64,000 bases of DNA, from contig OY282386.1 of NCBI GenBank assembly GCA_958295945.1, positions 4,520,204-4,584,203 on the forward strand, written 5' to 3'. The stretch's first letter is position 1. Every line of letters begins with the position of its first letter. Shown here piece by piece: positions 31,264 through 47,969 of this stretch. Below the pieces are notes generated by a model that searched no databases, was not told the DNA's origin, and saw only the letters and a program-made list of their open reading frames with translations. A program made the translations under genes and the position numbers. The stretch comes from Candidatus Poribacteria bacterium. GTDB lineage: Bacteria; Poribacteria; WGA-4E; WGA-3G.

Positions 31264-31479
31264 ATATAGTTCAGTAGATTGGGTTTCAATTCTATTGGAG
31301 GTAGGGTTTAGTAATACGGATTGAATTAGCATATCGTTTTTTTGCTAGGGAATGTCCGAGGCGCAATGAATTTCGCGTGGTGAATGTGTGTTAGACATTC
31401 ACATTGAACGCGTTTTTGGTTATTGTAAAGTGTATTTTTAGATCTAATCAGAACAAAAATCACAATTTTGGAGAATACT
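31264..31479. repeat. gap with REP-like repeat
   Basis: GAATGTCCGAGGCGCAATGA (from 31350) is shared with the gap at 39641. It contains a GCGCAAT and TTTCGCG-type stem. GAATGT and ACATTC arms are nearby. GGAG at 31470 serves the sulfatase start. Confidence 0.5.
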
Positions 31480-32760
31480 ATGGCAAAACAACCGAACATA
31501 TTACTGATTCTTGCAGATGATCACGGTTATGGTGATATTTCTGCACATGATGGACCATCAATACAAACCCCGAATATAGACAGAATTGCTAATGAAGGTG
31601 TGCGTTTTACGAAATTTTATGCGAATTGTTCAGTGTGTTCTCCGAGTCGTGCATCGCTGATGACCGGACGTTATCCAGATAGAGTTGGTGTTCCGGGAGT
31701 GATTCGCACACAGGCCCAGAACAACTGGGGTTACTTTCGTCAGGATGCGATTACGTTACCTTCAATGTTGCAGCAGAAAGACTATCGTACGGCACTTATC
31801 GGTAAGTGGCATTTGGGTCTTGAAGATGAGAATCATCCTTGTAAACGCGGGTTTGACCATTTTCATGGTTTCCTTGGGGATATGATGGATGACTATTATA
31901 CGCACCTTCGGCATAATAACAACTATATGCGGGACGATTACGATACGATTGACCCGAGAGGACATGCGACAGACCTGTTTTCCGATTGGAGTGTTGATTT
32001 TATTCGAACGCACGCGCATACTTCCCATCCATTTTTTCTGTATCTTGCGTATAATGCCCCGCATACACCAATTCAACCCCCAGACGATTGGATAGAACGC
32101 GTGAAGAAACGTGAACCGGATATTTCTGATCAACGTGCGAAGTATGTTGCCCTTGTTGAACACATGGATGCCGGTATTGGACGAGTGCTTGAGGCACTTG
32201 AGGAGACTAATCAGTTGTCAAACACACTTGTCATTTATTCATCGGATAATGGTGGACAGATGAATGTTGGTGCACACAACGGTCCCTTGCGTGGTCAGAA
32301 AGGTGAGATGTATGAAGGGGGTATACGAGTGCCGACTTGTGCTATGTGGCAGGGGAATATGCCGGCAGGACATGTATCGGATCAGGTCGGTATGTTGAGT
32401 GATTTGTTGCCTACACTCTGTGAAGTTGCAGATGTTCCTGTTCAACATGAAATTGATGGTCGTTCTATCTGGGGAACATTTCAGGGTGAGAAACAGGATT
32501 TGTCTGATCGTTTGTTATATTGGATACGCAGGGAAGGTGGACAACAGTTTAGTGGTCAGTGCCAACATGCGGTTCGTAGGGGTGATATGAAGCTGCTGCA
32601 TAACCGTCCATTTGAACCGTTGGAACTTTATGACTTATCCAATGATCCATTGGAGACAACAGATGTTTCGCAATCGGATAAAAAAATGTATAATGAGATG
32701 AGAAATCTGTTTCAGGAGGAGACTCAGAGAGCGGGGAGTGTGCCGTGGCAGAAGGGGTAA
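31480..32760 (+). CDS. Cys-type sulfatase
   Basis: This 426-residue sulfatase (alkaline phosphatase superfamily) should remove sulfate esters. Cys53 in CSPSR is the residue that must be oxidised to formylglycine. Metal ligands are visible as ADDHGYGD (Asp13, Asp14) and SSDNGGQ, and the catalytic lysine/histidine region as IGKWHLG. There is no signal peptide, so it appears cytosolic unless the start is misplaced. The ATG at 31480 has GGAG seven bases upstream. Its maturation needs a formylglycine-generating enzyme. The FGE-like proteins encoded downstream lack the catalytic cysteines, so the true activator must be elsewhere. Confidence 0.9.
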   Translation: MAKQPNILLILADDHGYGDISAHDGPSIQTPNIDRIANEGVRFTKFYANCSVCSPSRASLMTGRYPDRVGVPGVIRTQAQNNWGYFRQDAITLPSMLQQKDYRTALIGKWHLGLEDENHPCKRGFDHFHGFLGDMMDDYYTHLRHNNNYMRDDYDTIDPRGHATDLFSDWSVDFIRTHAHTSHPFFLYLAYNAPHTPIQPPDDWIERVKKREPDISDQRAKYVALVEHMDAGIGRVLEALEETNQLSNTLVIYSSDNGGQMNVGAHNGPLRGQKGEMYEGGIRVPTCAMWQGNMPAGHVSDQVGMLSDLLPTLCEVADVPVQHEIDGRSIWGTFQGEKQDLSDRLLYWIRREGGQQFSGQCQHAVRRGDMKLLHNRPFEPLELYDLSNDPLETTDVSQSDKKMYNEMRNLFQEETQRAGSVPWQKG

Positions 32761-32845
32761 AAGTAATTAATATCTTTGTGTGTCCACTGATATTTATTGC
32801 TATCCTTTTGGTTCTCAGGTGTCTCTAAAATTGGGGAGGTGTGTG

Positions 32846-33553
32846 ATGAAAATGGATAAGCAAATAAATGAAAATGATACACATTTAGATAAGAACAGTG
32901 ATGAGTCTGAAATGGAATTTGATGTAGCAATGGACACCTTTACACCAGAAGACAATCCTGAAATGCCACCTCATAGTGAGTTATCAGTAATCCAACAAAG
33001 TTTGGAAGCGTTACAAGAATTATTTGAGAAACAGATTGCTCGCAATCAGAATCAGACAGAGATGTTTGACAAGATTTATGCGGAGATGAAGGATTACAAA
33101 GAGAGTTTTCTTTTGGAAGTGCTTCACAAACCGATCATCCACAATCTGATTCAACTATATGACAGTTATCTATTGCTTGAATCTCAGCTTGATGTCATGC
33201 TTGAGACGGAAGATGGAGTTATATCTGATGGTTTAACACAATATCGGAATAATCTTGAGAATTTTCGATATAAATTGGAAGAGGTGTTGTATCGTTTGGA
33301 TGTAACACCTTATGCGGAGTCCTCAAAGACGCTTGATCGGCAACTGCATAAGACTCGTCAAACGATATCAACAGATGATCCTAAGCAGGACAAGACAATT
33401 GCTGAAGTGCATAAAATAGGGTTCAATTGGCGTGAGAAGGTATTTCGTCCGGAAGAGGTGACAATTTATCGTTATTCTGCTTCAACAGAAAACAGTGAAG
33501 AAATTGTAAGTAAATCTCCTTCTGGTGAGAAAGGGGGCAATACGGATGGGTAA
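32846..33553 (+). CDS. GrpE-like nucleotide exchange factor, first gene of the Hsp70/J-like block
   Basis: This 235-residue protein has an acidic N terminus, a long coiled coil (about 50-110) and a compact C-terminal part reading EVHKIGFNWREKVFRPEEVTIYRY, which follows the GrpE beta-domain pattern (IGF, then RPAEVxVY). It is divergent from canonical GrpE, so I call it GrpE-like. The ATG at 32846 follows GGGGAGGT. The Hsp70 gene starts within its last eight bases, and this coupling supports the role of exchange factor for that Hsp70. Confidence 0.7.
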   Translation: MKMDKQINENDTHLDKNSDESEMEFDVAMDTFTPEDNPEMPPHSELSVIQQSLEALQELFEKQIARNQNQTEMFDKIYAEMKDYKESFLLEVLHKPIIHNLIQLYDSYLLLESQLDVMLETEDGVISDGLTQYRNNLENFRYKLEEVLYRLDVTPYAESSKTLDRQLHKTRQTISTDDPKQDKTIAEVHKIGFNWREKVFRPEEVTIYRYSASTENSEEIVSKSPSGEKGGNTDG

Positions 33554-35141
33554 AGTCGTTGGGATTGACCTTGGGACGACATTTTCAGTGATTGCACATG
33601 TGAATGAACATGGACAAGCGGAGATAATACCGAACTTAGAGAGTGAGCGTATTACACCTTCGGTTGTGATGTTTGAAGACAATCTTGTGACGGTTGGGAA
33701 GATAGCTAAGCAAAACGCGCGGGCAGTGCCAGAACAGATAGTGGAATTTATTAAGCGCGAGATGGGTAAATCCAAGTTGGAATTCTTTCGCACCTTTGAT
33801 GAGAAGGACTATTCCCCCGAAGAACTCTCTGCGGTTATTCTCACGAAACTCAAGCAGGATGCTGAAACTTATTTGGGTGAAGAGATTACGGATGCTGTTG
33901 TTACTGTTCCTGCCTATTTTCACGATGCTGAGCGCGAGGCAACCCGAAACGCTGGTAGAATTGCGGGTTTGAATGTGCTGCAGGTTCTTAATGAACCGAC
34001 TGCTGCTGCACTTGCTTATGGGATGGACCAATTGGGTAGTAATCAGAATGTATTTGTGTTTGACCTTGGCGGTGGCACGTTTGATGTGACGATCATGAGT
34101 GTATCTGAGTCGGAGATACAGATGCTTGCGACAAATGGTGACCATCGTTTGGGTGGAAAAGATTGGGACGATAAAATCATCATGCATGTTGCGGAGATGT
34201 TTGAGATAGAACATGGAGAGAATCCGTTAGTTGACCTGCATTCATATCAAGACCTTCAATTGGATGCGATTACTGCGAAAGAATCTTTGTCGTTACGACA
34301 GAGAGCATTGATCGTATGTGGTTACAATGGCAAAACAACACGTGTTGAGTTGACACGTGAGAAGTTTGAACAACTTACATCGGACTTGCTTGAAAAAAGT
34401 CGTGTGCTGTGCAATGTTGTTTTATCTGAAGCAGACATGACCTGGGAAGATATTGATAAAATCTTATTGGTAGGTGGTTCAACACGGATGCCGATGATAC
34501 AAGAGATGATTGCTACACTTAGTGGGAAAGAGATAAATCCACATGAAGTCAATCCTGATGAGGTCGTGGCTATCGGTGCAGCGATTCAGGGAACTCTCCG
34601 TCAGATTACGGAGGGAGATACAGAGACTGTAGATATGCCCGAGGCAGTTATAGACCGTTTCATCGGTCCTGATGGTGTTCCGAAAGTAACTGTTACTGAT
34701 GGTGCGACACATAATCTTGGTCTTATAGTTCTTAATGCGCTGCGTGAGTATGTTATTCATGTGATGATACCTAAAATGACAGTGATTCCCTGTGAAGTAG
34801 CGGATAAGTTTTTGACGGTGGATCACAATCAACCCTCGGTGTTAATTGAAGTGGTGCAAGGACTTGAGCAGGACCAACGTAAAGATCAAATTGATCTGTT
34901 TGATGAATACAAATTGGGTGAATGTACACTGGAACTGCCCCCTGGTTTGCCGCAAGGGTCACCGATTGAGGTGAACTATAAATACAATTTAGACCAAAAT
35001 CTTGAGGTGACCGCTAAATCTCTCTCAAATGATGAGGCGACTGCTGTTTACGATCTTTTCTCTATTATTGAACGCCCTACGCTCAATGAGGAAGAGGTTG
35101 CCCAGGCTAAAACAGAGCTTCAGGATCTTGTTGTTGAATAG
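33546..35141 (+). CDS. Hsp70 family chaperone lacking the C-terminal lid
   Basis: This 531-residue Hsp70 has a complete nucleotide-binding domain: DLGTTFSV near the start, VTVPAYFHDAEREATRNAG, FDLGGGTFDVTI and LLVGGSTRMP. A beta substrate-binding domain ends near PIEVNYKYNLDQNLEVTA. It stops about 100 residues short of DnaK, so the helical lid and the usual C-terminal tail are missing. This suggests a dedicated chaperone or switch rather than the housekeeping DnaK. The ATG at 33546 overlaps the GrpE-like gene. The genes that follow encode proteins with a divergent J-like domain. Confidence 0.9.
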   Translation: MGKVVGIDLGTTFSVIAHVNEHGQAEIIPNLESERITPSVVMFEDNLVTVGKIAKQNARAVPEQIVEFIKREMGKSKLEFFRTFDEKDYSPEELSAVILTKLKQDAETYLGEEITDAVVTVPAYFHDAEREATRNAGRIAGLNVLQVLNEPTAAALAYGMDQLGSNQNVFVFDLGGGTFDVTIMSVSESEIQMLATNGDHRLGGKDWDDKIIMHVAEMFEIEHGENPLVDLHSYQDLQLDAITAKESLSLRQRALIVCGYNGKTTRVELTREKFEQLTSDLLEKSRVLCNVVLSEADMTWEDIDKILLVGGSTRMPMIQEMIATLSGKEINPHEVNPDEVVAIGAAIQGTLRQITEGDTETVDMPEAVIDRFIGPDGVPKVTVTDGATHNLGLIVLNALREYVIHVMIPKMTVIPCEVADKFLTVDHNQPSVLIEVVQGLEQDQRKDQIDLFDEYKLGECTLELPPGLPQGSPIEVNYKYNLDQNLEVTAKSLSNDEATAVYDLFSIIERPTLNEEEVAQAKTELQDLVVE

Positions 35142-35251: not shown

Positions 35252-35293
35252 AGCGCGCTTACAAAGCGCGCCTACGGTCTGTAGGTAAGTTAT
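35252..35293. repeat. REP-like hairpin, intact copy
   Basis: GCGCGCTTACAAAGCGCGC is a near-perfect palindrome followed by CTACGG, then TCTGTAGGTAAGTT. It lies in the gap after the Hsp70 gene. The same hairpin appears inverted at 35360-35389 and again at 43752. Confidence 0.75.
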
Positions 35294-35312
35294 GAGTTGT
35301 TCAGCGCGCTTA

Positions 35313-35428
35313 ATGAAGATTAATTTATTAATTCGGTAATTCTATTTTTTACTCAAAACCCGTAGGCGCGCTTTGTAAGCGCGCTGGACTTTGATCTCAA
35401 ATTACCCAATTTATTTCTTAATCTTCAT
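35313..35428. mobile_element. 116-bp MITE-like element inserted in a REP hairpin
   Basis: ATGAAGATTAA (35313-35323) and its exact complement (35418-35428) bound the element, with further imperfect pairing inwards. The flanks, GCGCGCTTA on the left (35304-35312) and CAAAGCGCGC on the right (35429-35438), join to rebuild the REP hairpin seen intact at 35253. The element itself carries an inverted copy of that hairpin at 35360-35389. It has no coding capacity. Confidence 0.68.
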
Positions 35429-35512
35429 CAAAGCGCGCCTTCGGTCTGTGCGTAAGTTCAGATAAAATAAAGCCTGCCATTATCGGTAATATCTTGCATA
35501 GGAAATGAATTT

Positions 35513-36775
35513 ATGTCCAAGCTCGAAGAATATATTGCGTTTATCAGCGCGCTCAGAACGGCATCACCGACAATAACAGATGAACAACGTAAGGGTTTTG
35601 TTCGGTTAGGTGTTCAGGAATATGGACTCACTGTTGATGAAGCCATGAACATTTTGAACCTATCAGGAATACAGGTCGGTGAGCAAGTTGATTATTTTCA
35701 GGTATTGGGTTTGTCAATTTCTGATTTTGAACACCGAAGCGAAGCAGAGATTGTTCACCATGTTGAAACAGCACACAAAAAGTTGTATAGTGAATCGTTG
35801 AAAGCGGGTGGTCGTCCTCGTGCTGATGGCAAGACAGAGGAGCAGTGGCGGACACTCTTGAATCAAGCGCGTGATTCCTTGATAGACCCAAAAAGAAGAT
35901 TGGGATATCTGTCAACGATACAACAAGAGACGGTAAGTATTGATAAGGCGTTGAGGACTCCGATACTGGACAACATGGCCCTGATTCCTGCTGGTGAGTT
36001 TCAGATGGGTAGTGCTGATGACGAAGCTTATGGTGATGAACATCCTATCCACTCCGTTTATCTGGATGCGTTTTATATTGATAAATATCCTGTGACAAAC
36101 TCACAGTATAAGGCATTTGTGGATGAAAACCCAGAATGGAACAGGCAAAACATTCCTCATGAATATAGTGATGTTGACTATCTAAAGCATTGGAGAGCGA
36201 ACAGTTTTCGTGATTCTCAAGCCGAACACCCAGTTGTCAATGTGAGTTGGTATGCTGCGATGGCGTTTGCGAAATGGACAGGAAAACGTTTGCCAACTGA
36301 GGCAGAATGGGAAAAAGCAGCACGCGGTGGTGTCAGTGGTAACAAGTACACGTGGGGTGATGATGCCGATCTGTCTATGGCAAATTATGACTGGAACATC
36401 GGCGAAACGACACCTGTTAGGCAATATCCTCCGAATGGGTATGATTTATATGATATGTGTGGGAATGTATGGGAATGGTGTCTTGATGCATATCATGATG
36501 GTATTGCTATGGGGTCATCGCCTAGTAACCCGATTGTTGGAGCGAATTCGATTGAGTGGGTTGAGAAGCATTTTTTAGATGTTGAAACGAACAGGGTTCT
36601 GCGTGGTGGTTCTTGGCGGATACCTGCATCTTTAGTAAGAATTGCGAATCGTAATGCAGAGTCACCTTCCTTTTCACTGAATGTAATAGGATTTCGTTGT
36701 GTTTGGACTGTGCCATCTGGACATGGTGCGGAAAGTCAATCTGCAGGAATCCAATCAAATACTACCAATTCCTAA
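35513..36775 (+). CDS. J-like module fused to FGE-like domain (array member 1)
   Basis: This 420-residue protein has the shared N-terminal module: a helical segment (1-55) and a J-domain-like segment (59-133) with YFQVLGLS, then AHKKLYSESLKAGGRPRADG and LNQARDSLIDPKRR. These match the J-domain pattern of YYEVLGV, then AYEVLSDPEKR, but with PRADG where HPD should be. The C-terminal FGE-like domain (about 153-410; SUMF1/EgtB/PvdO superfamily, C-type-lectin-like fold) has GEFQMGS, KRLPTEAEWEKAARGG, DMCGNVWEWCLD and VLRGGSW with GFRC. It has no CxxxxC after RGGSW, so formylglycine synthesis is unlikely and ligand binding is more plausible. It follows the Hsp70 gene by 371 bases. Confidence 0.85.
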   Translation: MSKLEEYIAFISALRTASPTITDEQRKGFVRLGVQEYGLTVDEAMNILNLSGIQVGEQVDYFQVLGLSISDFEHRSEAEIVHHVETAHKKLYSESLKAGGRPRADGKTEEQWRTLLNQARDSLIDPKRRLGYLSTIQQETVSIDKALRTPILDNMALIPAGEFQMGSADDEAYGDEHPIHSVYLDAFYIDKYPVTNSQYKAFVDENPEWNRQNIPHEYSDVDYLKHWRANSFRDSQAEHPVVNVSWYAAMAFAKWTGKRLPTEAEWEKAARGGVSGNKYTWGDDADLSMANYDWNIGETTPVRQYPPNGYDLYDMCGNVWEWCLDAYHDGIAMGSSPSNPIVGANSIEWVEKHFLDVETNRVLRGGSWRIPASLVRIANRNAESPSFSLNVIGFRCVWTVPSGHGAESQSAGIQSNTTNS

Positions 36776-36787
36776 AATGAGCATAAA

Positions 36788-38191
36788 ATGTCTAAACGAG
36801 ATGAGTATATTTCATTCATCAATGAGATAAAGTCAATTTTTCCAACAATTTCTGATGGACAGCGAAAAGAGCTTCTTCGTAGAGCGGTTCAACAGTATAA
36901 CGTTTCGGTTGATGAGGCAGTTGATATATTGAACGCATCCGGGTTGATTATCGGTGAGCAGGTTGATTATTTTGAGGTGTTGGGTTTATCAATGTCTGCG
37001 ATTGATAACCTATCGGAAGTAGAAATTATCTCTTGGGTAGATGCAGCACATAAAAAGTTATATGGTGAATCATTGCAGGCTGGTGGTCGTCCTCGTGCTG
37101 ATGGTAAGTCAGAAGCAGAATGGCGTACGGTCTTGAATCAAGCGAGAGATGTACTTACGAATCCACAGCGGCGACAAGAACACATGGGTGAACTGAGTGT
37201 TAAGCAAACAGAAGAATCAAAAGTCACTATTCTTCAAAATTCAAAGACCGCAATTACCAAACCATATTTACAGATAGAAGATACTGCTCTTTCGGAACAT
37301 AAAGGATCGGTCAATTCTGTTGCATTTTCTCCAGATGGGGCTTCCATTGTAAGTGGAAGTTCGGATAATACAGCAATGGTCTGGGATGTACTCAGTGGAA
37401 CACTGAAATGGACATTTATTGGACATCAAGATGAAGTAACTTCGGTCATTTATTCTCCCGATGGTAAGACAATTGCAAGTGGTAGCCATGATAACACAGT
37501 TCGTTTGTGGGATTCTGACACAGGTTTACTCAAAAATACTCTCACTGGCCATTACGGGGCAGTAAGTTCAGTCGTCTATTCACCTGATGGCAAGACACTC
37601 GCGAGTGGTAGTCACGATAGAACGGTACGCTTGTGGGAAGCTAATACAGGTGAACTAATATATATTCTCAAAGACCATAGCAATTGGGTGACTTCTCTCG
37701 TCTTTTCACCAGATGGTAGGACAATTGCCAGTGGTAGTTATGATAGGACTGTTCGTGTATGGGATGTAGTTATGTTTTACAAAAAATTTACATTGAGTGG
37801 TCACAAAAATAGTGTAAATTTAGTGGTTTATTCACCTGATGGCAATACTATTGCAAGCACGACCCTAAATGGTAATATTCTTATGTGGGATGCTGCAACT
37901 GGTGAACGACAAAACTTTATGGCAGGACACCTCTCTTGGTTTAATTCTTTATCTTTTTCACCCAATGGTTCAACACTTGCCTGTGGTAGTTATTATGGTT
38001 TGATACGTCTTTGGAACACTACCAGAAATGTATTTTTTTCTACACTCACTGGACATAAGTCCACAATAAAATCCCTTGCATATTCGCCTGATGGACAAAT
38101 TCTTGCAAGTGGTAGTACGGACAAGAATGTACGTTTATGGGATCTGAATCGTGATCGTGATGCGTTTGACAATCCTATGAATTATTTCTAA
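36788..38191 (+). CDS. J-like module fused to 7-blade WD40 propeller (array member 2)
   Basis: This 467-residue protein begins with the array's common module (J-like segment about 59-133, with YFEVLGLS, then GGRPRADG and LNQARDVLTNPQRR). A linker of about 35 residues leads to seven WD40 repeats (about 170-455), one closed propeller. The blades carry SPDG turns and end with W-D/N/E. Blades are regular, suggesting recent amplification. It starts 12 bases after member 1. The propeller is about 75% alike to that of member 3 by eye. WD40 propellers bind proteins or peptides, so this may be a partner-recognition arm. Confidence 0.86.
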   Translation: MSKRDEYISFINEIKSIFPTISDGQRKELLRRAVQQYNVSVDEAVDILNASGLIIGEQVDYFEVLGLSMSAIDNLSEVEIISWVDAAHKKLYGESLQAGGRPRADGKSEAEWRTVLNQARDVLTNPQRRQEHMGELSVKQTEESKVTILQNSKTAITKPYLQIEDTALSEHKGSVNSVAFSPDGASIVSGSSDNTAMVWDVLSGTLKWTFIGHQDEVTSVIYSPDGKTIASGSHDNTVRLWDSDTGLLKNTLTGHYGAVSSVVYSPDGKTLASGSHDRTVRLWEANTGELIYILKDHSNWVTSLVFSPDGRTIASGSYDRTVRVWDVVMFYKKFTLSGHKNSVNLVVYSPDGNTIASTTLNGNILMWDAATGERQNFMAGHLSWFNSLSFSPNGSTLACGSYYGLIRLWNTTRNVFFSTLTGHKSTIKSLAYSPDGQILASGSTDKNVRLWDLNRDRDAFDNPMNYF

Positions 38192-38203
38192 TGGTATAAT
38201 TGT

Positions 38204-39592
38204 ATGGCGGACCGAGATGATTTCATTACAATAATTCGTGCTCTTAGAAATGCTTCTTCGACTATCTCTAATGAACAACGAAAGGGTCTCATACGCCAGG
38301 CAGTGCAAAATCATGGCATATCTGTTGAGGAGGCTACAGAGATTCTTGCATCTCTTGGTTTGGTTGTTGGTGAAGAGATCAGTTATTTTGATGTGTTAGG
38401 ATTTTCTATTGATGCGTTCCGAAACATAGATGAAGCAGAAATCCAGAATCTGGTTGAGGCTGCACATAAGAGATTGTATAGTGCTTCGTTGAAAGCGGGA
38501 GGTCGTCCTCGTGCTGATGGAAAGTCAGAAGCAGAATGGCGTACGGTCTTGAATCAAGCAAGAGATATACTTACAAACCCGCAGCGGCGACAAGAACACA
38601 TAGGTGAACTAAGTGTTAAGCAAACAGAAGAATCAACGGCCGCAGTTCTTCAAAATTCAAATACCGCAATTACCAAACCACATTTACAAATAGAAGATAC
38701 TGCTCTTTACGAACATAAAGGATCGGTCAATTCTGTTGCATTTTCTCCAGATGGCACTTCCATCGTGAGTGGAAGTTCAGATAACACGGCTGTTATATGG
38801 GATGTTGTAAGTGGAGAATTGAAACACACTTTACATGAACATGTAGGCGATGTTACTTCGGTTGTGTATTCTCCCGATGGTGAGACAATCGCAAGCGGCA
38901 GTAGTGATAAAACAATTCGTTTGTGGAATTCTGAAACAGGAGAACTCAAGAATACTCTCATTGGACATAAAAGTGAAATTCGTTCAGTTAACTATTCACC
39001 TGATGGCAAGACTCTTGTGAGTGGTGGCAATGACAATAGGGTATGTATATGGAATGCAATCAGTGGAACATTTTCAAATATTCTCGTTGGACATAGCAAT
39101 TTGGTGAGTGCGGTCGCATTTTCTCCTGATGGTAAGACAATCGCAAGTGGTAGTTATGATACTTCTGTGCGTTTGTGGGATGTAACCAAATATAGATGTC
39201 GCAACTCCTTGGAACATGATATGAAGGCAGTTAGTTCAGTTGTTTTTTCTCCAGACGGTAAAACCATTGCAAGTAATAGTCTATACGGTAATTTGCATCT
39301 GTGGAATCCTTCAACTGGGGAACAACAAAACTATTTTGCTGGGCACCGAACTGAATTTAATGCTATTGCATTTTCACCTGATAGTTTGACACTTGCATCT
39401 GGGAGTTATTATGGTTTGATACGTCTATGGGATATTGCTTCCGGGAAATTTACTTCAACACTTACAGGACATAAATCCACCATAAAATCTCTTGCGTATT
39501 CACCTGATGGACAAATCCTTGCAAGTTGTAGTACGGACAAGAGTGTGCGTTTATGGAATCTAAAACGCGATCGTGACGCGACTGATTCTTAG
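38204..39592 (+). CDS. J-like module fused to 7-blade WD40 propeller (array member 3)
   Basis: This 462-residue protein has the same layout as member 2. Its N-terminal module is almost identical at DNA level to that of member 4 (39722), over about 240 bases with one change seen. From codon 108 onwards it instead follows member 2. It is therefore a chimera of two neighbours, a clear sign of gene conversion or unequal exchange. The leader TGGTATAATTGT before the ATG is also shared with member 4. Confidence 0.86.
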   Translation: MADRDDFITIIRALRNASSTISNEQRKGLIRQAVQNHGISVEEATEILASLGLVVGEEISYFDVLGFSIDAFRNIDEAEIQNLVEAAHKRLYSASLKAGGRPRADGKSEAEWRTVLNQARDILTNPQRRQEHIGELSVKQTEESTAAVLQNSNTAITKPHLQIEDTALYEHKGSVNSVAFSPDGTSIVSGSSDNTAVIWDVVSGELKHTLHEHVGDVTSVVYSPDGETIASGSSDKTIRLWNSETGELKNTLIGHKSEIRSVNYSPDGKTLVSGGNDNRVCIWNAISGTFSNILVGHSNLVSAVAFSPDGKTIASGSYDTSVRLWDVTKYRCRNSLEHDMKAVSSVVFSPDGKTIASNSLYGNLHLWNPSTGEQQNYFAGHRTEFNAIAFSPDSLTLASGSYYGLIRLWDIASGKFTSTLTGHKSTIKSLAYSPDGQILASCSTDKSVRLWNLKRDRDATDS

Positions 39593-39721
39593 AGGTATTT
39601 CTAATACAGGTAATAGAAATGAAATTCCAATTTTAACTTGAATGTCCGAGGCGCAATGAATTGCGCGACTACGAACCGGAATTCCTTATAGGGTTGTTAT
39701 TTTCAGAAATGGTATAATTGT
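39593..39721. repeat. gap with REP-like repeat and duplicated leader
   Basis: GAATGTCCGAGGCGCAATGA (from 39641), then ATTGCGCGACTACG, forms a GCGCAAT/ATTGCGC hairpin followed by CTAC. AATGGTATAATTG before the next start duplicates the leader of the preceding gene. Confidence 0.55.
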
Positions 39722-40945
39722 ATGGCAAACCGTGATGACTTCATTACCATAATTCGGGCACTGAGAGACGCTTCTCTGACTATTTCTAACGATCAACGAA
39801 AGGGTCTCATACGCCAGGCAGTGCAAAATCATGGCATATCTGTTGAGGAGGCTACAGAGATTCTTGCATCTCTTGGTTTGGTTGTTGGTGAAGAGATCAG
39901 TTATTTTGATGTGTTAGGATTTTCTATTGATGCGTTCCGAAGCATAGATGAAGCAGAAATCCAGAATCTGGTTGAGGCTGCACATAAGAGATTGTATAGT
40001 GCTTCGTTGAAAGCGGGAGGTCGTCCTCGTGCTGATGGAAGGACGGAGGAACAGTGGCGAACACTCCTCAATCAGGCACGCGATGCACTCATCCACCCAG
40101 AATCACGAAACGCACCACTCATAGCTGCAGATTTTGTCGAAGATGAGGCAGAGAAACCACCTGTTCCTTTACATCTTCTTGAGGACATGGAGCTTATACC
40201 TGCAGGTGAGTTTAAAATGGGTGGCAGTGATGACGAAGCATTTCAAGATGAATTGCCTGTTCATGATGTTTACCTTGATGCATTCTATATTGACAAATAT
40301 CCTGTAACCAATGCACAATTCAAGGAATTTGTTGATGCGAACCCACAATGGGAAAAACCGCGCGGGTTCACATTTTTTCATTCCTTTAAATTCTACGATG
40401 GATATTACCTACTCCATTGGGATAAGGATAACTACCCAGAAGAGAGAAATGACCATCCCGTTGTTCATATCAGTTGGTATGCTGCGATGGCTTATGCACG
40501 GTGGATTGGCAAACGATTACCTACTGAAGCAGAATGGGAGAAAGCAGCACGTGGTGGATTACAAGACCAAAAATATCCGTGGGGTGACATGATTGATGGT
40601 GGCAAAGCAAACTATGAAAAAAGACGGCAACAGACTACACCTGTTGGACGTTATCCTGCAAACGGATACGGTTTATATGATATGGTTGGCAATGTGTGGG
40701 AATGGTGTCTTGATGAGTGGGATAAGAGTTTTTATGCATTTTCGTCAAAAGATAATCCGATATGTGGTGGGAATATTGAAAGAATAGTTCAAAACTATAC
40801 GAATTCTAAATCACATCATGTTATACGCGGAGGATCGTGGTACAATTCAGTTGAGAATGTCCGGACTGCTAAGCGATCTGGTGTCTTACCAACATACGCA
40901 AATTCTAACATAGGATTTCGGTGTGTAATACCTGTTGCGTCATAG
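39722..40945 (+). CDS. J-like module fused to FGE-like domain (array member 4)
   Basis: In this 407-residue protein the N-terminal module has FDVLGFS, then AHKRLYSASLKAGGRPRADGRTEEQW and LNQARDALIHPESR. The FGE-like domain (about 155-405) has GEFKMGG, RLPTEAEWEKAARGG, DMVGNVWEWCLD, then VIRGGSWYNSVENVRTAKRSG and GFRCV. The catalytic cysteines are missing. The region after RGGSW, which in this fold forms the exposed ligand face, is quite unlike that of the other members. The first 317 bases are shared with member 3, which has a WD40 C terminus, so the same module is being joined to different heads. Confidence 0.85.
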   Translation: MANRDDFITIIRALRDASLTISNDQRKGLIRQAVQNHGISVEEATEILASLGLVVGEEISYFDVLGFSIDAFRSIDEAEIQNLVEAAHKRLYSASLKAGGRPRADGRTEEQWRTLLNQARDALIHPESRNAPLIAADFVEDEAEKPPVPLHLLEDMELIPAGEFKMGGSDDEAFQDELPVHDVYLDAFYIDKYPVTNAQFKEFVDANPQWEKPRGFTFFHSFKFYDGYYLLHWDKDNYPEERNDHPVVHISWYAAMAYARWIGKRLPTEAEWEKAARGGLQDQKYPWGDMIDGGKANYEKRRQQTTPVGRYPANGYGLYDMVGNVWEWCLDEWDKSFYAFSSKDNPICGGNIERIVQNYTNSKSHHVIRGGSWYNSVENVRTAKRSGVLPTYANSNIGFRCVIPVAS

Positions 40946-40999
40946 TACTCCTACGAATCAAACACATATACGATATGGACAGTTATTGGAGTAGTGAAC

Positions 41000-42292
41000 A
41001 TGTCTAAACGCGATGAGTTTGAAGCATTTATCAGTAGACTCAAAGCAGTTTCACCTACTATTACAGATGAACAACGAAAAGGTCTTTTGCGGCAGGCATC
41101 TTTGGAGTTCGACGTTCCAGTTGATGATGCGGTTGAGATTCTACGAGCTGCGGGATTGGTTGTTGGAAGAAATGAAAACTATTTTGAGATATTGGAAATC
41201 TCGATTGCTAAACTCAATAACCTAAGTGAAGATGACATCACTACCTATGTTAATGACACACACAAGAAACTATATACAACATCATTAGCTGCGGGTGGAC
41301 TACCACGTCCTGATGGGAGGTCACAAGAACAGTGGCGTAATGTTTTGAATCAAGCGCGTGATACATTGATTGACCCATTGAAAAGACGTGAACACATTTC
41401 AATGCTTCAACATTATATGGACGAACAAAAATTAGATGAAACTGAAAGCATACCAAATAAACAAGCATCAGAAATTGTAGATTTACCTCGGCAAGAATTG
41501 AGTCATTTAACTATACCTGATGATTTAATTGTGCCAGAAGATATGGTATTCATTCCCGCTGGTGAGTTTCTAATGGGCAGCGAGGATGAAGAGGCACAAG
41601 ACGATGAACAACCGAATCATGTTGTTTTTCTTGATGCATACCTGATGGATATATACCCAGTCACCAATTCAGAATTTAGAAATTTTATTAATGCTAACCC
41701 AAAATGGAGAAAAACAGATGTCAATGGAGAACATATCTCTATTGAATTTCAGGATGGGGGTTATTTAAGAGATTGGGAGGACAATACATTCCCTAATGGT
41801 AAAGCGGAGCATCCTGTTACTCAGGTGAGTTGGTATGCTGCGATGGCGTATGCCCAGTGGGTAGGGAAACGGCTACCAACAGAAGCGGAGTGGGAAAAAG
41901 CAGCACGTGGGGGTATAGGGGGAAAGAAATACCCTTGGGGTGATTCCATCGATGGAGTCGACTTCAATACAGACGATACTACACCGATTGGAAGCACTCC
42001 TGCTAATGGTTATGGGTTATATGACATGAGTGGTAATGTGTGGGAGTGGTGTCTTGATGCTTATGATCCAGAATACTATTTAGTTTCCCCACCAAAAAAT
42101 CCAATTTCAGATACAGCCAACGTGCCTTGGGTGGTGAATAACTTTAGAAATATCAAGTCTCCACGCGTTTTACGTGGTGGTCCTTGGGATATTGATTCTC
42201 AAGGTGTACGCGTTTCTCACAGATTCAGCGGCAATCCGATGGATACATTTCCTACATTTGGATTCCGATGTGTGAAAGAAATTGTGAATTAA
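41000..42292 (+). CDS. J-like module fused to FGE-like domain (array member 5)
   Basis: This 430-residue protein has a J-like segment reading YFEILEIS, then THKKLYTTSLAAGGLPRPDGR and LNQARDTLIDPLKRREHI. Here PRPDG retains a Pro-Asp pair as in HPD, but without the histidine. After a linker of about 45 residues comes the FGE-like domain with GEFLMGS, DMSGNVWEWCLD, then VLRGGPWDIDSQGVRVSHRF and GFRCV. I use the ATG at 41000 with GGAG at 40988; the GTG at 40994 would sit too close to it. The gap to member 6 is 24 bases. Confidence 0.84.
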   Translation: MSKRDEFEAFISRLKAVSPTITDEQRKGLLRQASLEFDVPVDDAVEILRAAGLVVGRNENYFEILEISIAKLNNLSEDDITTYVNDTHKKLYTTSLAAGGLPRPDGRSQEQWRNVLNQARDTLIDPLKRREHISMLQHYMDEQKLDETESIPNKQASEIVDLPRQELSHLTIPDDLIVPEDMVFIPAGEFLMGSEDEEAQDDEQPNHVVFLDAYLMDIYPVTNSEFRNFINANPKWRKTDVNGEHISIEFQDGGYLRDWEDNTFPNGKAEHPVTQVSWYAAMAYAQWVGKRLPTEAEWEKAARGGIGGKKYPWGDSIDGVDFNTDDTTPIGSTPANGYGLYDMSGNVWEWCLDAYDPEYYLVSPPKNPISDTANVPWVVNNFRNIKSPRVLRGGPWDIDSQGVRVSHRFSGNPMDTFPTFGFRCVKEIVN

Positions 42293-42316
42293 GAATATTC
42301 TTGGGAATCATTGTTT

Positions 42317-43678
42317 ATGGCTAACCGTGAAGAATATATCAGTGTTGTCAACACACTTAAGGCAACTTTACCGACAATTACCATGCAGCAACGGGTGGTT
42401 TTACTCCAACAAGCCGTGCAGCAATATGGACTCTCCGCAGAAGATGCGGAAGAAATCTTGAAGACATCTGGATTAGTCGTTGGTGAAAGTGTGAACTACT
42501 TCCGGGTGTTAGGTCTATCTTTAGATGAAATCCAGGGCGAGAGTGAGAATGATATCCTCAGTATCATAGAGGAAACTCATCAAAAATGCTATGGTGAATC
42601 GTTGCGTGCGGGTGGACTGCCGCGTCCAGATGGAAGAACACAAGAACAGTGGCGAACAGTTTTGAATCAAGCGCGGGATGTGCTGAAAGATCCACAAAAA
42701 AGAGTGGAACACATAGCAATCATAAATACTGAAACTTCGCATTTTGATGAGGCATTTCCACAAGACGGCACTACAAATCTTAATCATACTTCAATCCAAC
42801 TTGCTATACCAGAAAATATGATGTTGATCCCAGAAGGTGAATACCGTGGGAGGAGTATTGAATCTTCTTTAGGAGATTCTAAATTTGACACACCGGATCA
42901 TACAATTCATGTTGATACGTTCTATATTGACAAATTTCCAGTAACGAATGCACAATTTAAGGAGTTTACAGATGCCAATCCGTTATGGAGAAAAACAACA
43001 AGGCGTAATGAATGGAACAAAATTAAACAGAAAATGTCTATTTTTAGTAGGTTTCACGATGGAAACTACTTAAATCAATGGTATGAGAGTAATTTTCCAA
43101 TTGGTATGGAAAACCATCCAGTAACTAATGTGAGTTGGTATGCGGCAATGGCTTATGCGCAATGGGCAGGAAAACGTTTACCCTCTGAAGCCGAATGGGA
43201 AAAGGCCGCACGTGGTGGATTAATTGGACAACACTATCCTTGGGGTGATAATCTGGATCCTGACATGGCTCATTGTGGAAAAAGTGTAGGGACGACCTAT
43301 TCTGTTGGACTATACCCACCAAACAACTACGGTTTACATGATATGGCTGGGAATGTGTGGGAGTGGTGTCTTGATGAGTATGCATTGAATTTCTATGCGA
43401 CATCACATAAACAAAACCCAATTGCTGGTGTCAACACACCAGAGGAATTGGATGAATTATTGAGCAATTTTAGAGTTTTCTCAACTGACCGTGTTCTAAG
43501 GGGAGGTACGTTGTTCACAACATCAGAACCGATGCCAATTGCCAATCGGTATGGTTGTTCACCTCTTAACACGGTCCTACGTATTAAGCTTTTAGTAATA
43601 CGGCAACCTACCTCTTCTACAAAGTTTGCCGCAAATGTTGGGTTTAGATGTGCTTGGGATGTTCGGTTAAAATCGTAA
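42317..43678 (+). CDS. J-like module fused to FGE-like domain (array member 6)
   Basis: This 453-residue protein has a J-like segment with YFRVLGLS, GGLPRPDGR and LNQARDVLKDPQKR. Its FGE-like domain has an extra basic stretch (RRNEWNKIKQKM) and a long insertion after RGGTLFTTSEP, before GFRCAW. Both features are shared only with member 8 (46545), so these two are sister genes separated by other members. The opening strand reads EGEYRGRS instead of GEFLMGS, the most degenerate version here. The ATG at 42317 is preferred over the in-frame TTG at 42311. Confidence 0.83.
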   Translation: MANREEYISVVNTLKATLPTITMQQRVVLLQQAVQQYGLSAEDAEEILKTSGLVVGESVNYFRVLGLSLDEIQGESENDILSIIEETHQKCYGESLRAGGLPRPDGRTQEQWRTVLNQARDVLKDPQKRVEHIAIINTETSHFDEAFPQDGTTNLNHTSIQLAIPENMMLIPEGEYRGRSIESSLGDSKFDTPDHTIHVDTFYIDKFPVTNAQFKEFTDANPLWRKTTRRNEWNKIKQKMSIFSRFHDGNYLNQWYESNFPIGMENHPVTNVSWYAAMAYAQWAGKRLPSEAEWEKAARGGLIGQHYPWGDNLDPDMAHCGKSVGTTYSVGLYPPNNYGLHDMAGNVWEWCLDEYALNFYATSHKQNPIAGVNTPEELDELLSNFRVFSTDRVLRGGTLFTTSEPMPIANRYGCSPLNTVLRIKLLVIRQPTSSTKFAANVGFRCAWDVRLKS

Positions 43679-43751
43679 TCCATAGGAGTCAAATTCGGAA
43701 AATGTATCAGTCTTGTGCTGTAAGACAGATTTTATTGGATCAGACATTATA

Positions 43752-43776
43752 GCGCGCTTACAAAGCGCGCCTACAG
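43752..43776. repeat. REP-like hairpin inside the array
   Basis: GCGCGCTTACAAAGCGCGC is followed by CTAC, the same hairpin as at 35253. Nearby AGAAGATTAAATTAGG resembles the inner edge of the MITE at 35313-35428, so a decayed copy of both may lie here. Confidence 0.65.
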
Positions 43777-43820
43777 TTATTGTGTAAATCCTGAGAAGAT
43801 TAAATTAGGTTGAAAAAAGC

Positions 43821-45185
43821 ATGTCAAAAAGAGAAGAATTCATCGCAGCAATTAATGTCCTTCGGGCTGCTTCTCAGTCTATTACGTCAGAACATCGAAA
43901 AGGACTTCTTCAGCAGGCAGTACAGGAATATGGTCTTACGGTAGAGGATGGAACGGCAATATTGAATGCTTCAGGATTGATTGTCGGTGAAGGAATTAAC
44001 TATTTAGATGTCCTAGGACTAACTTTAGATGAAATTGAAAACAAAAACGATGCTGAAATGTTGGTTCTCGTTAACGAAGCACATAGAAAAGCGTATAATG
44101 GTTCGTTACAGGCTGGTGGATTACCGCGTGCGGATGGTCGAACGCAGGCACAGTGGTACACTTTGTTAAATCAGGCGCGTGACACGTTAACACACCCTCA
44201 TAAACGTCGTCATTATCTGGAAAAATACGTGCACCAAGAAAACGTATCAAAGAAAACTGAAGAATCTATCCAAAAAACAGAACCTGAAATACAAGAACCT
44301 AAATCAACTTTACCAAAAACCCCACAAACTACCATAAGGACTACATTCTCCAATTCCAGTTCTACTCAAAAGCTGCAACCTCCCGATAATACACCTCAAT
44401 CCATGGTATTCATTCCCGGAGGTGAGTTTCTGATGGGAAGCGATAATAAAGATGGTGAAAGTGATGAAAGCTTGATACATTCTGTCTACGTGGATTCGTT
44501 CTTTATGGACAGATACCCTGTCACTAACGCACAATTCAAGATGTTTGTAGAGGCTAATCCACAATGGCGTAGACCTACTGACTTGTACTTTTGGAACATA
44601 AAGTGGAACTCAACAAAGAAAAAACCTGAACACGATGGTGATTACTTGAAACATTGGCATGAGAACAACTATCCAGATGATAAAGCGAATCATCCTGTGA
44701 CTTGGGTGAGTTGGTATGCTGCGATGGCTTATGCGAAGTGGTTGGGTAAACGTTTGCCTTCAGAAGCGGAATGGGAGAAAGCTGCGCGTGGTGGTGTGTC
44801 TGGACAGAATTATCCTTGGGGAAACACAATTGATTCTACTATGGCAAACTATAACAACACGAATGGTGGCCCGTCTGAAGTTGGACAATATCCAGTAAAC
44901 GGATACGGTCTCTATGATATGGCAGGAAATGTGTGGGAATGGTGTCTTGATGTGTCCGATGCTGAGTTCTATTTAATATCATCACAACACAATCCGATTC
45001 ATGGCGCGCCTTCAGTCAACTCAGTTACGAACGAATTTACTGATGAAAGTGTCCTACGAGTTTTACGTGGTGGTTCTTGGATTGATTCTCCGCTATTACT
45101 TCGGACTGCTTTCCGTTATAAGAATAATCCGAGACGGACTCTCGGAAGGATCGGTTTTCGTTGTGTGAAAACAGTTACCGCTTAA
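43821..45185 (+). CDS. J-like module fused to FGE-like domain (array member 7)
   Basis: This 454-residue protein has a J-like segment with YLDVLGLT, AHRKAYNGSLQAGGLPRADGR and LNQARDTLTHPHKRRHYL. The linker (about 135-190) is rich in Thr, Pro, Ser and Gln and much longer than in other members, giving a flexible tether. The FGE-like head has GEFLMGS, DMAGNVWEWCLD, then VLRGGSWIDSPLLLRTAFRYK and GFRCV. There is no catalytic CxxxxC. A REP hairpin separates it from member 6. Confidence 0.84.
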   Translation: MSKREEFIAAINVLRAASQSITSEHRKGLLQQAVQEYGLTVEDGTAILNASGLIVGEGINYLDVLGLTLDEIENKNDAEMLVLVNEAHRKAYNGSLQAGGLPRADGRTQAQWYTLLNQARDTLTHPHKRRHYLEKYVHQENVSKKTEESIQKTEPEIQEPKSTLPKTPQTTIRTTFSNSSSTQKLQPPDNTPQSMVFIPGGEFLMGSDNKDGESDESLIHSVYVDSFFMDRYPVTNAQFKMFVEANPQWRRPTDLYFWNIKWNSTKKKPEHDGDYLKHWHENNYPDDKANHPVTWVSWYAAMAYAKWLGKRLPSEAEWEKAARGGVSGQNYPWGNTIDSTMANYNNTNGGPSEVGQYPVNGYGLYDMAGNVWEWCLDVSDAEFYLISSQHNPIHGAPSVNSVTNEFTDESVLRVLRGGSWIDSPLLLRTAFRYKNNPRRTLGRIGFRCVKTVTA

Positions 45186-45209
45186 GTATCAATGTTTCTG
45201 TCATTTTTC

Positions 45210-45238
45210 TTGTATTTCGTCATTTGCTGTGCTAAAAT
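45210..45238 (+). promoter_or_regulatory. possible sigma-70-type promoter
   Basis: TTGTAT (45210-45215) and TAAAAT (45233-45238) are spaced by 17 bases, about 59 bases before the small gene at 45297. Confidence 0.4.
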
Positions 45239-45296
45239 TCGTATATGTAATATAGGTCATAATCACTGAAGACTTCAAACGCCATGAGGGAAAAGT

Positions 45297-45647
45297 ATGT
45301 ATCCTATAAAGGAATTGCCTGAACACATAGCAAAACGTGTGACAATTACACTTGGTCCTGAAGAGCTTGTAAGAATTGACAATGACGATATTCTGCGAGC
45401 TGTTGTAGTGGATGCCGCAGGACGTGAATCGGCTGTCTTATTGCAGCAAATTCAGGGGAAGCATGAGGACTATTTAGATGTGCTTGATGGACAAGTGGAA
45501 CAATCAGATATTAGTTTTATCTATAATACCATTGTACAGAAGGCTATTTCAGATGTTACCATAGATGAATCTGTTGCTATCCTAAAAAAACAACAAAAAA
45601 CCTTACGTCAACAGGTAGAGTCAAGAAATAGCATCAACTCTAAGTAA
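45297..45647 (+). CDS. hypothetical protein in the J-like array
   Basis: This 116-residue soluble protein does not match a family I know. The N-terminal half looks like a small alpha/beta unit (RVTITLGPEELVRID), and the C-terminal half is helical with a Lys/Gln-rich end. GAGGGA stands six bases before the ATG. It has its own promoter-like sequence and lies between array member 7 and the DUF2971 gene, so it could be an accessory or regulatory part of the block. Confidence 0.55.
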   Translation: MYPIKELPEHIAKRVTITLGPEELVRIDNDDILRAVVVDAAGRESAVLLQQIQGKHEDYLDVLDGQVEQSDISFIYNTIVQKAISDVTIDESVAILKKQQKTLRQQVESRNSINSK

Positions 45648-45759
45648 ATATTCACTTGTCATTTGTCTGTGATTATACAGAATGTCAGATGTCTGATCGT
45701 TTGGCAAATTGATCTTTTGCACACAACAAAGGATCATAATGAAAAACAAGATACCTTGA

Positions 45760-46551
45760 ATGACTGAAGAAAACTCAAAAAGTATAGTTCATGAATTTCT
45801 CCATGTCCCTCCTAAAGAAGCGATCTTATGGAGATATATGGACTTCGTAAAATTTATATCTCTATTAGAGACAAACACCTTATTTTTTGCAAGAGCAGAT
45901 AAACTCGGAGACCCGTTTGAAGGATCGTTTCCAAAGAAAAATGCAACTGTTCGTACTACTTTAACTCCAAGACTTTCTGTGGAAGATATTTTCAAATATG
46001 CTCACGTAACACAACACCTAACACGGTTTACATTAGTTAGTTGCTGGCATGAAAGCGAGTATGAATCTGAGTCTATGTGGAATAGATATGCAAATGAAAA
46101 TAGTGGTATAGCAATTAGAACTTGTGCTGATACGCTTTCACGAAGTTTCTTGTCTAAAGAACAAATTCATATAGGACGTGTTCAGTATGTTGATTATGAT
46201 ACAGACACTATTCCAGAAGACAACGGATTGATACCTTATCTATATAAAAGAAAGAGTTTTGAGTCTGAACGAGAAGTAAGAGCAATTATTCAGAGACCTC
46301 CTGCTGGAATTGATATAACTCAATTGAGAAGTAGCATACAACAATTATCTCTTGGAGAAATCGGTGAATGGAAGGATTTCTGTGATATTGGATATTCCTA
46401 TGAAGTGAATCTTGAAATATTGATAGAAGAGGTACTTGTGGCTCGTTTAGCCCCTGACTGGTTTCTACAACTCGTCCAACAAGTCGCGAAACGCTACGGT
46501 TTGGAAGCACCTATAAATAGATCTGTCCTTGCGGATACACCGTCATGGTGA
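45760..46551 (+). CDS. DUF2971 family protein
   Basis: This 263-residue protein has the DUF2971 pattern: LWRYMDFVKFISLLETNTLFFARADKLGDPFEG near the start, SCWHESEYESESMWNRYA in the middle and YKRKSFESEREVRAI later. The family has no established activity; its members are often found in accessory and defence-associated gene clusters. The next array member overlaps its stop by seven bases, so it is probably translated together with member 8. Confidence 0.78.
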   Translation: MTEENSKSIVHEFLHVPPKEAILWRYMDFVKFISLLETNTLFFARADKLGDPFEGSFPKKNATVRTTLTPRLSVEDIFKYAHVTQHLTRFTLVSCWHESEYESESMWNRYANENSGIAIRTCADTLSRSFLSKEQIHIGRVQYVDYDTDTIPEDNGLIPYLYKRKSFESEREVRAIIQRPPAGIDITQLRSSIQQLSLGEIGEWKDFCDIGYSYEVNLEILIEEVLVARLAPDWFLQLVQQVAKRYGLEAPINRSVLADTPSW

Positions 46552-47969
46552 TTCAAAATACTAAAAAACATGCCAAAATCAGCAATCATAGAAATATGAA
46601 CCAACAGAACACCGAACGCGAAGAATTCATTTCAGTCATCAATACCCTCAAAGGACTTTCATCAACGATCACCGATGAACAGCGGAAAGGACTGCTGCAA
46701 CAGGCAGTGCAACAGCACGGTTTTTCCGTTGATGAAGCCAAAGATATTCTTATAACATCAGGATTAGCGGTCAATGAAATAATCAACTTTTTTGAGGTGT
46801 TGGAACTTTCTATTGAAAAACTGCAGGATCAAAGTGATAAACAAATCAAGACACTTGTAGATGAAGTCCACAAGAGACTTTACAGTACTTCATTACGTGC
46901 TGGTGGACTTCCACGGCCAGATGGCAGGACTCAGGAACAGTGGCGTAACTTGTTGAACCAAGCACGTGACACACTTGCCAACCCACACAAACGTCTTGAG
47001 CATATCGCTAAGATACAAAATAAAAATTTGCACGATGTTGATTCCATTTTAAATGTAGACCTTATTTCACCAGAACAAGATGAGATTCCAGTAGACGATC
47101 CAACCTCGCTAAGCATCCCAATTCCAGATGATATGGTCCTCATTCCTGCAGGTGAGTTTCTCATGGGGAGTAAGAATGAGAATGCTGACGACCGTGAAAA
47201 GCCGATACATAATGTCTATGTTGATGCGTTTTGTATTGATAAATATCCTGTAACAAACAGACAATACAAAGAGTTCATTGATGCTAACCCAAATTGGCAG
47301 AAACCTACTAAACAGTATAGACGTAAAAAAACCAGACAGATAGTGTATTCTATACTCAAGAAGTATCACGGACGAAACTATCTGACTGATTGGATTGAGA
47401 ACGATTATCCAAAAGAAAAAGCCAACCATCCCGTGACTCATGTGAGTTGGTATGCTGCGATGGCTTATGCGGAATGGATAGGTAAACGGTTACCGACAGA
47501 GGCGGAATGGGAGAAGGCAGCACGCGGAGGAACAGTAGCACGAAGATATCCATGGGGAAATAGGACGGATCCTGCTAATGCTGAATATAGTAAGGATGTC
47601 GGTGAAACATATCCTGTAGGAAAATATCCTGCAAATAACTACAGTGTGCATGACATGGTTGGCAACGTTTGGGAGTGGTGTTTGGATTTATATGATGCAG
47701 ATTACTATGCTAATTCTACCATTCGCAATCCAATTGCCGGTGTGAATACAGATGAAGATTTGGAGATGTTAAAATCTGATTTTTGGAACATTAGGACAGA
47801 TCGTGTACTACGGGGTGGGACACATTTTACTTCATCAGAACCTATCCATATCGCTGCACGTTGGGGTGGGAAACCTATTCAAACCAGTTATCTGAGTTCG
47901 CTATATTTTTCACAGTATATGGCAAACATAGGGTTTCGATGTGCATGGGACGTAAGGTTTAAATCATAG
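46545..47969 (+). CDS. J-like module fused to FGE-like domain (array member 8)
   Basis: In this 474-residue protein the module is preceded by about 20 extra residues if the ATG at 46545 (overlapping the DUF2971 stop) is used; a second ATG at 46596 has no good ribosome site. The J-like segment reads FFEVLELS, then VHKRLYSTSLRAGGLPRPDGR and LNQARDTLANPHKRLEHI. The FGE-like head has GEFLMGS, DMVGNVWEWCLD, then VLRGGTHFTSSEPIHIAARWGG, a long loop and GFRCAW. Its long loop and basic insertion (QYRRKKTRQ) group it with member 6. Confidence 0.84.
   Translation: MVIQNTKKHAKISNHRNMNQQNTEREEFISVINTLKGLSSTITDEQRKGLLQQAVQQHGFSVDEAKDILITSGLAVNEIINFFEVLELSIEKLQDQSDKQIKTLVDEVHKRLYSTSLRAGGLPRPDGRTQEQWRNLLNQARDTLANPHKRLEHIAKIQNKNLHDVDSILNVDLISPEQDEIPVDDPTSLSIPIPDDMVLIPAGEFLMGSKNENADDREKPIHNVYVDAFCIDKYPVTNRQYKEFIDANPNWQKPTKQYRRKKTRQIVYSILKKYHGRNYLTDWIENDYPKEKANHPVTHVSWYAAMAYAEWIGKRLPTEAEWEKAARGGTVARRYPWGNRTDPANAEYSKDVGETYPVGKYPANNYSVHDMVGNVWEWCLDLYDADYYANSTIRNPIAGVNTDEDLEMLKSDFWNIRTDRVLRGGTHFTSSEPIHIAARWGGKPIQTSYLSSLYFSQYMANIGFRCAWDVRFKS

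Follow-up and report, generated by a model that had tools for sequence, protein, structure and literature searches.

The window, a stretch of 64,000 nt from a Candidatus Poribacteria genome that consists of a single contig of 5.34 Mb, carries on its forward strand a gene cassette in which a GrpE gene and an Hsp70 gene are followed by eight genes whose products share an N-terminal module of ~140 residues (35513–47969). Behind the module, six of the eight proteins carry an FGE-sulfatase-like domain and two carry WD40 repeats, and a DUF2971 gene is placed between the seventh and the eighth module genes. A genome-wide search found no module copies beyond these eight. The features of the cassette are as follows.

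32780–33553, + strand: GrpE-like nucleotide exchange factor (Pfam GrpE, 2.7e-11), which precedes Hsp70 in most relatives too
33546–35141, + strand: dedicated Hsp70 of 531 aa (Pfam HSP70, 2.9e-123), without the SBD-alpha lid and with Gln at the DnaK R167 position
35513–35683, + strand: N-terminal helical half of the module in the first protein, residues 1–57, of no assigned family (AlphaFold helices 3–17, 23–37 and 41–51)
35678–35932, + strand: predicted J-like domain in the first protein, without HPD (hhalign 96% to the J profile; AlphaFold; Foldseek)
35795–35836, + strand: loop S95–T108 (SLKAGGRPRADGKT) replacing the HPD loop (column counts, entropy, codons)
35969–36706, + strand: FGE-sulfatase-like (C-type-lectin-fold) domain of the first protein, residues 153–398 (Pfam PF03781, 1.9e-65)
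36788–38191, + strand: module and WD40 propeller protein
38204–39592, + strand: module and WD40 propeller protein, a mosaic with a front like 39722 and a back like 36788
39722–40945, + strand: module and FGE-like protein
40994–42292, + strand: module and FGE-like protein (module starts at ~41000)
42311–43678, + strand: module and FGE-like protein
43821–45185, + strand: module and FGE-like protein
45760–46551, + strand: DUF2971 protein without module (Pfam DUF2971, 2.4e-5; PADLOC PDC-S31, 1e-17)
46545–47969, + strand: module and FGE-like protein (module starts at ~46611)

The Hsp70 gene probably starts at the ATG at 33546 and not at the listed GTG at 33525. From the ATG the protein has 531 aa, a length shared with many relatives, and the GrpE stop overlaps this start. 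The cassette is flanked by a sulfatase gene and a GH95 gene (31468–32760 and 48028–50331), the usual site in relatives as well, and the Pfam scan of the window neighbours recorded sulfatase, UxuA-like, GH95, LamG, TRAP transporter, TPR, vWA (BatA-type) and WD40 domains. In the main cassettes of relatives GrpE–Hsp70 also stands ahead of the module genes, and the DUF2971 gene recurs in two of their loci (L068 and L074).

The front of the 38204 gene (~300 nt) resembles the 39722 gene at 95–100% in windows over nt 60–300 (38204–38570 vs. 39722–40085), while the remainder resembles the WD40 gene at 36788–38191 at 87–97%, with the switch point within the segment SLKAGGRPRADG. This mosaic indicates that modules and tails undergo shuffling. 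Repeats with GCGCGCTTACAAAGCGCGCC cores were observed in both orientations at 35253–35450, between the Hsp70 gene and the first module gene, and at 43752, ahead of the 43821 gene; they are perhaps a small dispersed element.

Module sequence and predicted fold

The sequence-only reading had proposed that eight proteins carry motifs in the J-domain order with the HPD missing. All eight modules and their motif order were found, and HPD is absent from the eight as well as from all 94 full modules compared. HPD is regarded as essential for the standard stimulation of Hsp70 by J domains. The interval 35513–36016, given earlier as the module, does cover it (~35513–35932) but also takes in the start of the FGE-like domain, where the Pfam match begins at residue 153. 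The individual motifs are present but need small corrections: the opening Y-F/L-x-V/I-L-x-L/I-S is not uniform (YLDVLGLT in 43821, FFEVLELS in 46545, YFDVLGFS in 38204 and 39722), the helix II motif written H-K-K/R-x-Y is actually H-[KQR]-[KR]-x-Y (HQKCY in 42311, HRKAY in 43821), and the final motif, written LNQARD-x-L-x-P-x-x-R, reads LNQARDxLxxPxxR.

A profile of the J half built from 87 modules was compared by hhalign with a canonical J profile built from E. coli and Poribacteria J domains, and matched it at 96% (E 4.3e-9), so that the expected J domain was indeed found in a profile–profile search; no control (the N-half, the profile reversed, or its columns shuffled ten times) exceeded 0.7%. 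None of the window proteins tested matched Pfam DnaJ at E ≤ 1. When 42 members were scanned singly, DnaJ was the commonest weak family, with matches at E ≤ 1 in 15 and a best E of 0.02, and none of these 42 single proteins reached the Pfam gathering score for DnaJ. Jac1 and HscB are weak sequence matches to the module and surface as the closest J relatives by sequence, while E. coli DnaJ has the higher hhalign score.

The AlphaFold models showed J topology both for the whole module (pLDDT 86.5) and for the J half (pLDDT 88.7, pTM 0.76). In the predicted J half a short helix I (61–64) is followed by helix II (77–97), a loop (98–108), helix III (109–124) and helix IV (126–139); the helix II–III hairpin, on which the earlier assignment depended, is thus present in the predicted structure and has J-domain neighbours in the PDB. 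Ranks 1–35 of the Foldseek comparison of the J half with the PDB were all J-domain-containing proteins, among them the DnaK-bound J domain 5nro_B (TMt 0.75). The probabilities were ~1.0, but the E-values were weak (best 0.015, none below 0.01), so the J assignment leans jointly on the profile, the predicted fold and the Foldseek matches. These results indicated that the second half of the module is a predicted J-like domain, recognisable by profile and fold and lying below the Pfam cut-off. For the N-half, whose likeness to a TerB domain (as in DjlA) we take to be a mere resemblance, hhalign to TerB gave 0.2%, and this candidate was rejected.

Compared with the J domain (PF00226; DnaJ, HscB/Jac1), the module is alike in its helix order, its YFxVLGLS opening and its linkage to Hsp70 and GrpE, and it shares LNQA..L.DP..R in helices III–IV with Jac1/HscB. 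It differs in lacking HPD, in having a longer helix II that is not basic, and in its R-x-D-G loop. The mean charge of helix II was −0.45 in the modules vs. +2.7 in canonical J domains. The loop can be aligned to HPD only with uncertainty, as helix II is longer in the module and the loop is of different length. Judged from its profile and predicted fold, the module belongs to the type IV J domains, which can still be recognised as such although HPD has given way to a non-conservative replacement. Pam16 and DnaJB13 (type IV or pseudo-J proteins) likewise combine a J-like fold with a non-conservative replacement of HPD (PMC13254874). Unlike them, the module has a partner Hsp70 that is changed at the matching residue and a loop that is itself invariant; and Pam16 has an Hsp70 partner that works with the HPD protein Pam18 too, whereas the module's Hsp70 is dedicated.

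The replacing loop had been described as an invariant PR[A/P]DG. The eight proteins all carry GGxPR[A/P]DG; over the 94 full modules, however, the true invariant is RxDG with SLxAG upstream. Column counts showed I21, Y92, S95, L96, G99, R103, D105, G106, W112 and L116 to be invariant in the 94 modules, with P102 in 84 of 94 and position 104 free (P/A/S/T/K/V), and the signature SLxAG…RxDG…W is conserved in ~90 Candidatus Poribacteria relatives. The loop is the least variable segment of the module, with a mean entropy of 0.74 bits vs. 1.94 in helix II. At the fixed positions synonymous codons differ, R103 being encoded by five codons and G106 by four, and the codons of D105 vary too. This synonymous variation at invariant residues, together with the lowest entropy, indicates that the conservation of the loop exceeds chance. 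Gene conversion alone was rejected as the cause of the invariance: mosaics exist, yet the synonymous codons vary while the residues are fixed across genera. J-only relatives without the N-half (L057, L072, L164–L169) also lack HPD and keep RxDG. The N-half stands separate from the J half in L170 and is missing in L057 and L072.

Partner Hsp70 and the R167 site

The aspartate of HPD contacts R167 of DnaK (PMC8215388, PMC7289447). In an alignment to E. coli DnaK, the residue at this position was Gln in 31 and His in 2 of the 33 readable Hsp70s of the module clusters. Arg occupies the site in 28 of 28 DnaKs of the relatives and in the genome's own DnaK, as well as in E. coli DnaK, HscA, HscC and five further Hsp70s, one of them a paralogue found at some of the same loci. 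The ATPase set (D8, G10, T11, T12, K70, R71, P143, Y145, D148, R151, T199 and D201) is unchanged in 33 of 33 readable sequences. E171 is kept in 33 of 34 aligned Hsp70s, the remaining one being a truncated ORF, and the allosteric sites are largely retained (K414 and P419 in 34 of 34, Q378 and D393 in 33 of 34, D481 in 30 of 34). The position of DnaK E206 is Lys or Arg in 24 of 34, a comparison that is approximate because the alignment at DnaK 206–211 spans a 4-residue deletion. The SBD-alpha lid is absent from the cassette Hsp70.

In laboratory mutants, DnaJ D35N was suppressed by DnaK R167H (PMC7289447), and DnaK R167A was suppressed by DnaJ D35N both in vivo and in vitro (PMC13012618), from which it follows that a joint loss on both sides can preserve function. 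The two His-bearing cluster Hsp70s carry exactly the residue of R167H. The laboratory pairs of DnaK R167A/R167H with DnaJ D35N resemble the cassette in that the Arg–Asp contact is lost on both sides and function is regained (PMC7289447, PMC13012618); unlike them, the cassette is natural and fixed in the family, the whole HPD is replaced, and the charge of the interface is shifted. The loss of HPD on one partner and of R167 on the other suggests a natural re-coding of the conserved J–Hsp70 contact. The Hsp70 tree agrees with the Q state having arisen once, so the match between the two losses represents one evolutionary event plus one exception.

The exception is locus L170, in which a protein of 660 aa (4331–6313) joins an Hsp70 NBD, the N-half of the module and GrpE, the linker and the SBD being gone. 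In its Hsp70 part K70 is replaced by Arg and the R167 site is Lys, and neither the RxDG loop nor the Trp is left in the three adjoining modules. Retention of the loop thus goes with an Hsp70 that has linker and SBD, and in the one case where these are missing the loop is missing as well. A module–ankyrin protein of 715 aa also adjoins this fusion. At another locus, L124 (9919–12589), a J protein of 116 aa with TPE instead of HPD lies directly upstream of an Hsp70 that keeps R167. Like DjlB/DjlC with HscC, this TPE pair joins a specialised bacterial Hsp70 to a non-HPD J partner; but DjlB/DjlC (HPE; PMC13254874) and L124 (TPE) keep the acid and their Hsp70s keep R167, whereas the cassette lacks both. 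A second Hsp70 paralogue that keeps R167 was observed upstream of GrpE and the Q-type Hsp70 in four loci (L057:4500–6587, L164, L166 and L170), and in L057 it carries a C-terminal vWA domain (Pfam).

Fused domains, genomic site and distribution

The FGE segments were searched for Cys near the GGS motif, where we take the active-site Cys pair of catalytic FGE to lie. No Cys was found in 85 of 105 module-fused FGE domains, and in the rest the positions are scattered. Since a conserved Cys pair is missing, the FGE-like domains are probably binders rather than enzymes, as far as their sequences allow a judgement. An active FGE that matures the adjoining sulfatase was rejected on the same ground, and because the sulfatase borders GH95 also where the cassette is absent. 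Diversification of the FGE proteins by a DGR was rejected as well, as no RVT_1 match to a reverse transcriptase was found in the genome. In another genome (G016) the module was observed fused to an ABC-type inner-membrane permease (BPD_transp_1; L075, G016:C15) and to a TRAP transporter DctQ subunit (L076, G016:C20), on contigs that differ from that of the G016 cassette. The putative J-like tag is portable and occurs on membrane transporters as well.

All named relatives of the module are Candidatus Poribacteria. It is present in 17 of the 40 nearest genomes and in 29 of 85 genomes of the phylum, within one family, and nearly all of the evidence presented here comes from this one family of Poribacteria. 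Three genomes of the same genus without modules have a single Hsp70 each. Where modules are absent, the sulfatase and GH95 genes are adjacent (intergenic distance 74 bp in G001, ~1.1 kb in G018, 203 bp in G019 and 201 bp in G020), which indicates that the cassette is either present or absent as a unit and serves an accessory function. A mobile or viral origin was rejected, as the module cassette matched no plasmid or viral contig and usually occupies one fixed site.

PADLOC gave no match for the Hsp70, the GrpE or the first module protein, and for these a known defence family was set aside. A defence role of the cassette is possible, as a lead only, in view of the DUF2971 match to a PADLOC candidate family and of similar domain sets in the conflict systems of PMC7159879. 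These GAP1-N2 GTPase systems contain HSP70, GrpE and FNIII-DnaJ (Kaur et al., 2020; PMC7159879). They are alike in combining Hsp70 and GrpE with a J domain fused to other domains and in having an FGE-type domain (FGS) among their variable parts; in the outgroup locus L057, the J part is fused to a weakly matched Ig-like region. Among the window neighbours covered by the Pfam scan no GTPase was found, and the genome has no reverse transcriptase. The available portion of that paper mentions no loss of HPD or R167 for the GAP1-N2 systems.

Proposed mechanism and rival readings

The reading that we favour, at a probability of roughly 0.55, is that the type IV J-like module targets one dedicated Hsp70/GrpE through a re-coded interface and triggers ATP hydrolysis. 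One Hsp70 engine would then serve many adaptors, with the J-like tag in common and the binding domain varying: the FGE-like or WD40 domain would select a target and bring it to the dedicated Hsp70. The J side would have lost HPD and the basic helix II and gained the invariant SLxAGxxxRxDG loop, while on the Hsp70 side R167 would have changed to Gln or His and E206 usually to Lys or Arg, with the ATPase residues and nearly always D393 and D481 kept. The new loop may act at the NBD–linker–SBD junction to trigger ATP hydrolysis, and the system would be insulated from the housekeeping DnaK/DnaJ. We infer that the module proteins bind the Hsp70, stimulate its ATPase and deliver targets. A more speculative form of this reading, a polarity swap in which the Hsp70 arginine (R167) has in effect moved to R103 of the J loop, to be inserted between D393 and D481 and to trigger hydrolysis in trans, seems to us unlikely; if true, the Hsp70 system would be chemically orthogonal to the housekeeping one.

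The most serious competitor, which retains a sizeable minority of the probability, is that the module is a pure docking device that tethers the binding domain, the Hsp70 running on its intrinsic ATPase and GrpE with R167 unneeded. The missing HPD and the missing SBD-alpha lid agree with it, and loss of R167 would be expected once J stimulation had gone, a point that also weighs against an HPD-free trigger; Pam16 (DKE), moreover, is J-like and binds in the import motor without stimulating (PMC13254874). However, conservation is higher in the would-be trigger loop than in helix II, the docking helix; the R167 partners D393 and D481 are retained with the ATPase set; and none of the cassette's other proteins was seen as a J protein to drive the cycle. 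Further, the single family member whose partner has no SBD is also the one without the loop. The sequence-only reading had left open whether the loop contacts the Hsp70 in a novel manner or the domain just docks; on these sequence comparisons the re-coded trigger is favoured over docking, because R167 is lost in every readable partner while the ATPase and most allosteric residues are intact, and because the loop is lost only where the partner has lost linker and SBD.

It is improbable that the helices dock to Hsp70 while the RxDG loop binds some other partner, for example GrpE, the N-half of another module or a nucleotide. In length the loop exceeds an HPD loop, and the N-half fused into the L170 Hsp70–GrpE protein makes homotypic N-half contacts plausible, but the loss of the loop in L170 tracks the loss of linker and SBD although GrpE and the N-half are still present. 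A competitive or inhibitory decoy, in which modules block the J site of their own or the housekeeping Hsp70 and keep that Hsp70 in its ATP form until a target has bound, is quite improbable: competition with functional J domains has been proposed for type IV J proteins (PMC13254874) and the genome encodes three canonical DnaJ proteins, but the cassette Hsp70 already lacks the residue that canonical DnaJ needs, which leaves little to block, and helix II carries the opposite charge from J domains that bind DnaK, which makes binding to the housekeeping DnaK unlikely. That the module is no J domain at all, only a helical hairpin resembling one by chance, as the lack of Pfam DnaJ matches at E ≤ 1 in the window proteins tested and the Foldseek E-values above 0.01 might suggest, is highly improbable and contradicted by the profile match over scrambled controls, the AlphaFold J-half model, the J-only top of the Foldseek list and the linkage to Hsp70–GrpE.

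The role of HPD-less J proteins was called an open question in a 2026 review (PMC13254874), and HPD and its Hsp70 arginine are usually treated as universal for J-protein action. The cassette is a naturally occurring case of joint change in both partners; each Hsp70 comes with several module variants, and the system offers an internal exception (the SBD-less Hsp70 with the loop lost) as well as a housekeeping DnaK/DnaJ control in the same cell. It makes docking vs. HPD-free stimulation directly testable, and it could yield an orthogonal Hsp70–J pair.
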